From positions 1 through 42,091 of the IMG/VR virus record IMGVR_UViG_3300017917_001582: DNA of 42,091 nt, one strand, 5' to 3'. Of this stretch, positions 5,073-34,533 are shown in pieces. The DNA is from a virus. Under the pieces are notes generated by a model. The model was not told the origin of the DNA, did no database searches, and saw only the letters and a list, made by a program, of their open reading frames with translations. How positions within the stretch are numbered: the first letter of the stretch is position 1; every line of letters starts with the position of its first letter. Made by a program: the position numbers and the translations under genes.

Positions 5073-5270
5073 ATGGAAAAAAATACCAAATTAACTAGTG
5101 TAAAGATAATTGATAGAAATTATCATGAGTTCAAAAAAGTGACATTAAGTACAGATTTAACATTACAAAAATTCGTTAACAGAGCAATAGATTTATTTTT
5201 GAGGGATACTGAATTCAAAAATAAAATAGAAAATCACGAGACAGGCGGAATCAAAAATTCGAAGTATTAA
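5073..5270 (+). CDS. Ribbon-helix-helix (CopG/Arc-like) regulator
   Basis: A 65-residue protein. KLTSVKIIDRNYHEFKK (6-22) reads as the DNA-contacting beta strand and first helix, and STDLTLQKFVNRAIDLFLRD (26-45) as turn plus second helix, the pattern of CopG/ParG-type dimeric regulators. The C-terminal 20 residues are charged and probably disordered. It is the first gene of the plus-strand sugar module, with a perfect palindrome just upstream and a promoter-like sequence just downstream (5273-5306). It probably regulates its own operon, the following genes, or both. Confidence 0.7.
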   Translation: MEKNTKLTSVKIIDRNYHEFKKVTLSTDLTLQKFVNRAIDLFLRDTEFKNKIENHETGGIKNSKY

Positions 5271-5308: not shown

Positions 5309-5683
5309 ATGAAATCGTTTAGATTACTGCAAGGATATACAAACATAACAACATTTGGTATCAACACTGTTGATATTAGGGTTGAAAGAAGAAGACTTAG
5401 AGCAAGATGGACACCAGAAATTGCACAAGACATTGCAACATATCACGGTATTGATATTGAATCTGAGTTGACGGCGGTATTATCACAGGAAATTGCAAGA
5501 GAGATTGATAGGGAAATAATGAACAGTATTGCCTTTCCAATGGTTCGAAGAGTATTTGCACAGACAGTTGCAAATAATATTGTCCCTGTCCAACCATTAA
5601 ACGGACCAACTGGTATCTTATATTACACAGATTTTAGGTATGATAAGTACCACTACATAAAAGATTTTAAATTATTAAAATAA
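5309..5683 (+). CDS. Mini capsid-like protein: rearranged gp23 segments
   Basis: A 124-residue protein. Residues 21-71 (VDIRVERRRLRARWTPEIAQ onward, then HGIDIESEL and EIAREIDREI) resemble the C-terminal part of T4 gp23-type major capsid proteins, where the pattern is R.L.A.WT.ELAQD...HG.D.E.EL..IL..EI..EI.RE. Residues 75-112 (FPMVRRVFAQTVANN, VPVQPLNGPTG) resemble the N-terminal part of gp23 (L.RR..P.LVA....VQPM.GPTG). So the two blocks are in reversed order and nearly all of the ~450-500-residue capsid protein between them is missing. I chose ATG at 5309; a TTG at 5294 is possible. Its TAA overlaps the ATG of the first glycosyltransferase (TAATG). It cannot be the normal capsid subunit; the role is unknown. 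Confidence 0.65.
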   Translation: MKSFRLLQGYTNITTFGINTVDIRVERRRLRARWTPEIAQDIATYHGIDIESELTAVLSQEIAREIDREIMNSIAFPMVRRVFAQTVANNIVPVQPLNGPTGILYYTDFRYDKYHYIKDFKLLK

Positions 5684-7107
5684 TGATAACAATAGGTTTC
5701 TCAACAAGGGAAGACAACCCGAAATACATTGAATATCTTCAAAAAACATCAATGTATAAAGAAGTACAAATAATCCAAAAAGTAAACAATGCTGAAAAAT
5801 CATTGGCACAAGTTTACAACGAAATAATTGACGAATCAAAATACGATATTGTTGTATTGGTTCATGATGACTTGGAGTTTGAGACAAAAAATTGGGGTGA
5901 TAAAATAATAAAACACTTCAAAAGGAATAAAGACTATGGTATACTTGGTTTAGCGGGCACAAAATATCTACCAAGTAGCGGAATGTGGTGGGAACTACCA
6001 TCAACAATGTATGGTATTGTAAACCATTCCGATGGGTCAAAAAAATGGACATCAACATATTCAAAAGATGGTGGTGCCATAATTGACGATGTCGTTATTG
6101 TTGATGGTTTATTTATAGCAATTGATAAAACACGTATCAAACATAAATTTGATGAGTCTTTTGATGGGTTCCATTTTTATGACCTATCATTTTGTCTACC
6201 AAACTATTTAGACAATGTTGATGTTGGTGTAATATATGATGTTAGAGTAACACACCTATCTGTTGGTCAGACAAACGAAAAATGGGAAGAAAATAGGGTT
6301 AAATTTGCTGAAAAATATTCTGAAGATTTACCTATCGACATTAATGATCAAGACAAATGTGAAACTTTTATTTTTATTCACGATCAAGATTTGATTCTCA
6401 CGTTTGAAAAGAAAAATAAATTCAAAAACCTATATTCATACAAATATGTTTTCTTAGGTAACAGACCAGTAGATAAATTATCTGGTTTAGATAATTTAAT
6501 CGTTGCTCGTGATTATGAAGATAACATGGAACAATATCCATTATTCACATCATATACTGGTTGGTATGTTTTATGGAAAAACAATCTTATTAAAACAAAG
6601 TATGTGAACCTACTTGAATACGACATTGTGTTGGATCCTAATTTTAGTATTCACCAATCAAAAATATTGTCAGAGGGTGTTCAAATGATTGGGTACGTAC
6701 CATTCCCAATGTCACACTTTCATTTCGTTTCAAATCCAGAATGGAATGAACATATATTACCCGCAATTAACAAAGTTTATAAATTCGATGTTTCATCATA
6801 TGTTAAAAGGTTATTATCGCAAAACCCAAAAGCATTTTGGTCATCAACATCAAACACAACATTTAGAAAAGATGTGTTTGATGAATACATGAGGTGGTTC
6901 CAACCAATATCAAGAATGATTAAAGAAACTAAAACTTGTGGACATGCACATGAAAGGTCTATCACATATTTTACATTCATTAAAAACAAAAGAATGATGT
7001 TAATAAACACATTATTAAAACACATTCAAATGGATTCACATAAAACACAAGGACACTTTGTTAATAAAGATGAACAATTAAACAGAATCATTAATAACGA
7101 ATTTTAA
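5683..7107 (+). CDS. Two-domain glycosyltransferase (GT-A type)
   Basis: A 474-residue soluble protein. Residues 1-225 look like a GT2-type GT-A domain: an N-terminal ITIGFSTRED strand, the DIVVLVHDDLEF metal/nucleotide motif (about 55-66), and a later VDGLFIAIDKTRI block with an acidic FDESFDGFHFYDLSFC acceptor-side motif. Residues 230-474 form a second domain (YVFLGNRP..., LLEYDIVLDP, HAHERSITYF) that may be a further transferase. No membrane segment is visible. It is translationally coupled to the mini capsid-like gene upstream and shares one base with the next gene (TAATG). Donor and acceptor sugars are unknown. Confidence 0.75.
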   Translation: MITIGFSTREDNPKYIEYLQKTSMYKEVQIIQKVNNAEKSLAQVYNEIIDESKYDIVVLVHDDLEFETKNWGDKIIKHFKRNKDYGILGLAGTKYLPSSGMWWELPSTMYGIVNHSDGSKKWTSTYSKDGGAIIDDVVIVDGLFIAIDKTRIKHKFDESFDGFHFYDLSFCLPNYLDNVDVGVIYDVRVTHLSVGQTNEKWEENRVKFAEKYSEDLPIDINDQDKCETFIFIHDQDLILTFEKKNKFKNLYSYKYVFLGNRPVDKLSGLDNLIVARDYEDNMEQYPLFTSYTGWYVLWKNNLIKTKYVNLLEYDIVLDPNFSIHQSKILSEGVQMIGYVPFPMSHFHFVSNPEWNEHILPAINKVYKFDVSSYVKRLLSQNPKAFWSSTSNTTFRKDVFDEYMRWFQPISRMIKETKTCGHAHERSITYFTFIKNKRMMLINTLLKHIQMDSHKTQGHFVNKDEQLNRIINNEF

Positions 7108-34062: not shown

Positions 34063-34533
34063 TTAAAAGTTTAATACTGCGTTAGAAACTGAAATTGTTA
34101 TTTTAATTTCTGATGGTGAATCATCACCATAATCTAACACACCATAATCAATTGATGACACCATTCCCCAAATTGACCATTCTGACACAACAACACCAGT
34201 CGGGTCCAACATTTGTATTAAAAATGTCATTGGTTGTGTTATCAAATTTGAATCGATTAGTTGATATATGTTTTGTGACATCGATGGGCTAATCGGATCA
34301 TATAGAGTCATTTCAATATCATTCCATTCATAATGACCATGTGGTCCGATTGTCATTGAGGGTCTGTTTGTCTGTCTAACAAAGTATGGTGATATATTAA
34401 AAGAGCCCGGAAATGTTACTAAAAACCTATTAGTCCTCATTGGTTCGTATTGAATGGGTATTGATAATCCATCCTCATTTTGATTCCTTTGAGGTCTTTT
34501 ATTAAATCCTGATAATAGTTTAAAACCTTTCAT
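34063..34533 (-). CDS. Tail tube protein-like (T4 gp19 family)
   Basis: A 156-residue protein. After a polar prefix (1-30) the core resembles the T4 gp19/gp54 tail-tube fold: TNRFLVTFPGSFNISPYFVRQ, HYEWNDIEMTLYDPISPS, NIYQLI and a strand-rich C-terminus ending ITISVSNAVLNF. Length is near gp19 (163). It could be the main tube subunit or a baseplate tube paralogue. It is followed by a terminator, and it sits downstream of a RuvC-like nuclease and large structural genes. Confidence 0.7.
   Translation of the reverse strand: MKGFKLLSGFNKRPQRNQNEDGLSIPIQYEPMRTNRFLVTFPGSFNISPYFVRQTNRPSMTIGPHGHYEWNDIEMTLYDPISPSMSQNIYQLIDSNLITQPMTFLIQMLDPTGVVVSEWSIWGMVSSIDYGVLDYGDDSPSEIKITISVSNAVLNF

Follow-up and report, generated by a model that had tools for sequence, protein, structure and literature searches.

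The gene at positions 5309–5683 of the window, the whole 42,091-nucleotide (42-kb) stretch of viral DNA analysed here, encodes a 124-residue protein, hereafter the mini-capsid, which by its sequence consists of two segments of the T4-type capsid protein gp23, the spine helix and then the N-arm, behind a short leader peptide. The mini-capsid is one of a scattered set of gp23-piece proteins encoded beside one normal capsid gene in several giant phages. We tentatively regard these proteins as virion-protein mimics, whose most likely role would be as decoys for host sensors. The observation is rated as new in kind: no description of dispersed, permuted capsid-piece proteins beside an intact capsid gene was found in the literature searched, which covers the field in part.

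A permuted mini-capsid gene

The mini-capsid reading frame is intact, running without interruption from the ATG at 5309 to the stop TAA at 5681–5683, and the last A of that stop is also the first letter of the glycosyltransferase ATG at 5683. The features of this locus, together with one more distant gene taken up below, are:

5073–5270, plus strand: small upstream gene, 65 aa, kept upstream of the mini-capsid in contigs L019 and L022
5309–5683, plus strand: permuted mini-capsid gene, 124 aa (reading frame, Pfam match, orthologues and dN/dS)
5309–5335, plus strand: N-terminal leader MKSFRLLQG, of the type of the MxxFKFF/FKLLxG array ORFs in relatives (array listing, codon usage)
5348–5530, plus strand: gp23 E-loop return strand and spine helix piece, residues 14–74 (Pfam profile 134–194; T4 gp23 251–312)
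5531–5644, plus strand: gp23 N-arm piece, residues 75–112 (second Pfam stretch; T4 gp23 95–127)
5564–5596, plus strand: hallmark TVANNIVPVQP, pattern T[IV]xx[DN][LI]VPVQP (IMG/VR-wide scan, 19 matches)
5657–5680, plus strand: leader-like motif occurring again at the C-terminus, IKDFKLLK (orthologue alignment and motif scan)
5681–5685, plus strand: TAATG, stop/start overlap of the mini-capsid with the glycosyltransferase gene (sequence)
5683–7107, plus strand: glycosyltransferase (Pfam Glyco_tranf_2_5), which starts a glycan cluster reaching about 13.36 kb
34063–34533, minus strand: shortened tail-tube look-alike with the leader MKGFKLLSG (PHROG tail tube, 1.8e-8), among replication genes

Gp23 (PF07068) is the sole Pfam family that matches the product, in two stretches with an E-value of 5.2e-27 and 95.7 bits, exceeding the curated cut-off of 24.4 bits; the PHROG major head protein matches at 1.3e-24. 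In alignment with the solved T4 gp23 (data from NC_000866.4 and a PDB search), residues 15–76 fall on T4 residues 251–312 and residues 75–107 on 95–127, and the pieces therefore stand in swapped order. The profile search and T4 alignment, which the initial annotation had suggested as a check, thus bear out its claim of a swap, with clear gp23 similarity and the two halves out of native order. The intact gene and the TAATG common to mini-capsid and glycosyltransferase were also read correctly there, as was the N-terminal origin of the second piece; the first piece, which had been assigned to the C-terminal part, comes instead from the middle of gp23.

Both halves are clear homologues of T4-type gp23, from which the mini-capsid differs in its length of 124 residues, its swapped order and its location outside any head gene cluster. 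It also lacks the whole A-domain/C-terminal half of gp23 and the E-loop insertion, and so does not present the full HK97 fold order of N-arm, E-loop, spine helix and A-domain. Block profiles made from capsid proteins (delta domain, N-arm, spine and two A-domain blocks) were searched against about 30,000 ORFs, where the two mini-capsid pieces scored i-E values of 1.4e-24 and 4.3e-19, as against best values of 0.8 and 0.017 for the two pieces in a null of reversed sequences. No further gp23 piece was found in the window, and the phage's own capsid gene does not lie within it; relatives encode a separate full capsid gene. AlphaFold models of the mini-capsid reached a pLDDT of 39.5 with 5 rows and 56 with 55 rows (pTM 0.25), and a Foldseek search gave no match.

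Orthologues with both pieces swapped occur in independent IMG/VR phages (contigs L002, L003, L004, which is the same as L012, L013/L022, L019 and L052) at 41–53% identity, answering the earlier suggestion to look for the same gene beside glycosyltransferases in relatives. The coupling is kept as well: in L002–L004 and L019 the same glycosyltransferase gene begins before the ORF has ended, and in L022 another small gene sits between the two. The end of one more copy is found in L133, and genome G016 has a mini-capsid end. Pairwise dN/dS values of distant pairs, for which dS is near saturation, are about 0.15–0.29, so the mini-capsid is under purifying selection. In all complete orthologues both termini carry a similar FKLLRG-like motif. 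No permuted mini-capsid was found among 50,697 named phage records, and none lies upstream of the closest relatives of the glycosyltransferase (L020, L021, L023, L024 and L025). A swap of the capsid protein itself was ruled out, as the capsid genes found are in normal order, and a candidate permuted gene in LR756508 proved to be a single-piece match to a normal capsid N-terminus.

Capsid pieces in giant phage genomes

By the block profiles, the whole records G004, G005, G019 and G025, and likewise the 390 kb read of G023, each contain a single normal capsid gene along with two or more small gp23-piece ORFs:

G004: delta, 81 aa; N-arm, 159 aa; spine and C-terminal, 189 aa; weak spine, 96 aa
G005: N-arm; spine
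G019: N-arm; spine
G025: N-arm; A-domain
G023: N-arm; spine; weak A-domain

The pieces largely differ within each genome, each is joined to unrelated sequence, and the set varies between genomes. The isolate XacN1 carries two pieces, one from the N-arm in ORF261 and one from the spine in ORF451, and the huge-phage records LR745206 and LR756511 hold further gp23 pieces. With the same profiles, T4 returned just two matches, gp23 and one that would suit gp24; the capsid gene alone matched in P-SSM4, immuto, Mel-JY01 and LR756508, and G013 gave no gp23 piece. Searches of the same records for portal, sheath and terminase mostly returned a single gene for each, additional matches being few and either weak or partial, so the breaking-up into pieces seems, as far as tested, to be specific to the capsid protein. 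Two further candidates were set aside: a terminase–capsid fusion in XacN1 ORF261, whose terminase part is weak (0.07) and without similarity to the terminase of XacN1, and a match to a tail-tube fragment close to a capsid piece in LR756511, too weak at an E-value of 0.02.

An N-arm ORF with a fused domain is kept in five contigs (L014–L017 and L142), and in the L014–L017 family these ORFs follow a phage gene for translation initiation factor IF-3, which lies directly upstream at about 5.6–8.2 kb in L014, L015, L016 and L017; L015 has an RNase R-like gene nearby. At L140:313–774 and L145:1157–1540 the capsid N-terminus forms a separate ORF of 128–154 aa with an insertion after VQPM, and in G023, to which L145 belongs, the full capsid gene is separate from this ORF. 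L358:2461–5162 holds tandem capsid-like genes, the second of which, possibly a vertex-protein paralogue, has the N-arm AKTIAPNIVSFQPMPAP, similar in sequence to the hallmark of the pieces.

The N-arm pieces have that hallmark, T[IV]xx[DN][LI]VPVQP, in common. Of the 19 stretches matched in the IMG/VR scan, two are the mini-capsids of L003 and L012 and 17 are new loci; at 16 of these the motif lies inside an ORF of 48–278 aa (the other, L144, yielded none), and no match falls in a full-length capsid ORF. A scan of the genome contigs gave nine matches, all apparently due to chance. VPVQP is found in 0 of 150 sampled IMG/VR capsid N-arms, but two capsids from giant phages contain LDLVPVVPM (W14) and FDIVPVIPM (G025). 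When 23 capsids are ranked by likeness to the N-arm pieces, the phage's own capsid comes 3rd to 22nd, in rankings that rest on 20–57 residues and are noisy. For the window, whose own capsid is absent, the G019 capsid served as proxy: the N-arm piece is closest to LR756511 (22/38, as against 16/34 for the lineage proxy), and the spine piece is closest to the capsid of its own lineage. These comparisons are suggestive of N-arm pieces that are usually nearer to the capsids of other phages than to their own.

Leader peptides and a tail-tube look-alike

Positions 13–37 kb of the window are syntenic with 201–226 kb of G019, most genes being 40–79% identical. In G019 each of the two gp23 pieces has an ORF of its own, and the record coordinates of the two differ by about 290 kb: the spine piece lies inside a glycosyltransferase cluster (302928–303221), and the N-arm piece inside a tandem array of small ORFs with MKPFKFF-like leaders. 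This array of small variable ORFs, most without known relatives, spans G019:C1:3765–17490 (L177), and L137 and L147 hold leader-ORF arrays of the same kind. A few array ORFs have virion similarity, and most have none that is recognisable. Another leader ORF, L192:10672–10899 on the minus strand (G019:303172–303399), has a body that matches a portion of a 268-aa G013 protein (L129:16203–17006) at 38% identity. Leaders and bodies use codons in similar proportions (Phe TTC 0.22 versus 0.24; Lys AAG 0.17 versus 0.26), so it seems to be the peptide that is conserved rather than the DNA, and a DNA-level signal behind the leader was set aside on this basis.

Only one other gene in the window starts with a leader of the mini-capsid type, the tail-tube look-alike at 34063–34533, which has RuvC, primase and exonuclease genes as neighbours. 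It is 31% identical to the full tail tube of G019, with two stretches missing, and its orthologue in G016 (L440:1495–1965, leader MGEFKFLRG) is 73% identical.

The arrays in relatives, with variable small proteins behind a common N-terminal peptide, resemble the T4 internal head proteins IPI, IPII and IPIII, and the hydrophobic residues three apart in the leaders resemble the capsid-targeting peptide of those proteins. Residues 4 and 7 are critical in the capsid-targeting sequences of T4 (PMC9026906); the leaders MKSFRLLQG and MKPFKFF have F4 and L7 or F7, a lead toward a possible targeting function. The leader-protein set described here differs from the T4 internal head proteins in that it includes putative virion-protein mimics, and no conserved protease site was seen behind the leaders when these were read by eye.

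Candidate roles of the capsid pieces

Of the ideas in the initial annotation for the mini-capsid, which had coupled decoy with decoration protein, a decoy-type mimic is our best guess, on a mechanism inferred from sequence, because selected mimics of both trigger types, capsid and tail tube, appear under one leader. Both kinds of protein are well known to set off bacterial immunity: capsid protein triggers CapRel (PMC9712102), staphylococcal Thoeris (PMC11312562) and, with EF-Tu, Lit (PMC3014915), and tail-tube protein triggers DSR2 (PMC11087589). The mimics of both proteins carried here as extra genes are a likeness to the triggers of CapRel, Thoeris and DSR2. The capsid-piece proteins would occupy putative host proteins that recognise newly made capsid protein; a piece that shows the surface seen by such a sensor, but lacks the remainder of the capsid fold, might bind the sensor with no triggering. 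The leader-bearing tail-tube look-alike could have the same role toward tube sensors such as DSR2. As a further guess, the leader may act like the capsid-targeting sequences of T4 and bring the protein inside the phage head. DSAD1 is a phage countermeasure to immunity triggered by virion proteins; the literature searched, itself a partial coverage, yielded no countermeasure built from capsid pieces, whether permuted or dispersed.

A decoy role is consistent with the retention of swapped order, termini and locus in orthologues as divergent as those above, with the small gp23-piece ORFs beside one normal capsid gene in the four whole records and the 390 kb of G023, and the two in XacN1, with the near absence of extra portal, sheath and terminase pieces from the same records, and with a second leader protein in the window whose G016 orthologue retains its leader. 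Likeness to the phage's own capsid would be expected of decoys, yet the N-arm pieces are usually nearer to other lineages; the pieces jointly span many parts of gp23, beyond the need of one sensor epitope, most leader-array ORFs have no recognisable virion similarity, folding confidence is low, and the tube look-alike could be a genuine tail part. The main rival to decoys, itself rather improbable, is a weapon: the pieces would be built into the growing shell of another gp23-type phage in the same cell and stop its assembly, the phage's own capsid being spared by divergence. Such poisoning of rival capsids accounts better than a decoy for the N-arm pieces that are unlike the own capsid, and it agrees with the absence of VPVQP from sampled capsid N-arms and with the nature of the N-arm and spine as shell contact regions, the spine being a contact region of the HK97-fold shell. 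The spine pieces of the window lineage, however, resemble their own capsid and would harm its assembly, and the noise in the short rankings weighs on their use here. It is likewise rather improbable that the piece is incorporated in the prohead or capsid lattice of its own phage, where it would serve as a minor component or as an anchor for cargo, or that it brings the glycosyltransferase to capsids. The conserved gene overlap points this way, as do the E-loop strand, spine and N-arm, all lattice elements, and the spacing of aromatic and hydrophobic residues in the leader; against it, many pieces do not track their own capsid, their genes are remote from the head genes and in most cases from glycosyltransferases too, and the closest relatives of the window's glycosyltransferase have no mini-capsid upstream. 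As like pieces elsewhere adjoin IF-3 or lie in leader arrays, the glycosyltransferase is probably adjacent to the mini-capsid without being central to its role.

The N-arm piece, aligned to T4 95–127, probably falls in the Gol part of gp23; the likeness to Gol/Lit exclusion is in this shared region, and the difference is that the N-arm here is on a free-standing phage protein. Gol, a stretch of 29 residues in gp23, binds EF-Tu, and no other part of gp23 is as conserved (PMC3014915). Such a piece might bind or modulate EF-Tu or block Lit-type proteases, and the N-arm ORFs that come after phage IF-3 genes would suit an effect on translation; we consider this unlikely, the spine, A-domain and C-terminal pieces being left unexplained. 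Least probable, and already disfavoured, are capsid-gene shards from co-infecting phages that were inserted in small ORFs and kept by chance. Shuffled, mosaic pieces fused to unrelated sequence in sets that differ per genome look like such recombination debris, but open frames and the same architecture persist under low dN/dS, five contigs retain the N-arm ORF together with its fused domain, and piece formation is nearly gp23-specific. A particular origin proposed earlier, a fusion of the end of one tandem capsid copy with the beginning of the following one, is at odds with the internal position of the first piece in gp23, with the likeness of the two pieces to different capsid lineages and with the distant ORFs that carry them in G019.

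Taken across the giant phages, scattered leader-tagged mimics of virion proteins, capsid segments and a trimmed tail tube, may thus be kept as sensor decoys or as poisons of rival capsids, a reading we hold tentatively. XacN1, an isolated phage with two such ORFs, makes the idea testable. If they are decoys or capsid poisons, these proteins would constitute a new class of phage conflict protein that can be detected from sequence alone, and the pieces would mark the capsid surfaces that sensors or rivals rely on.
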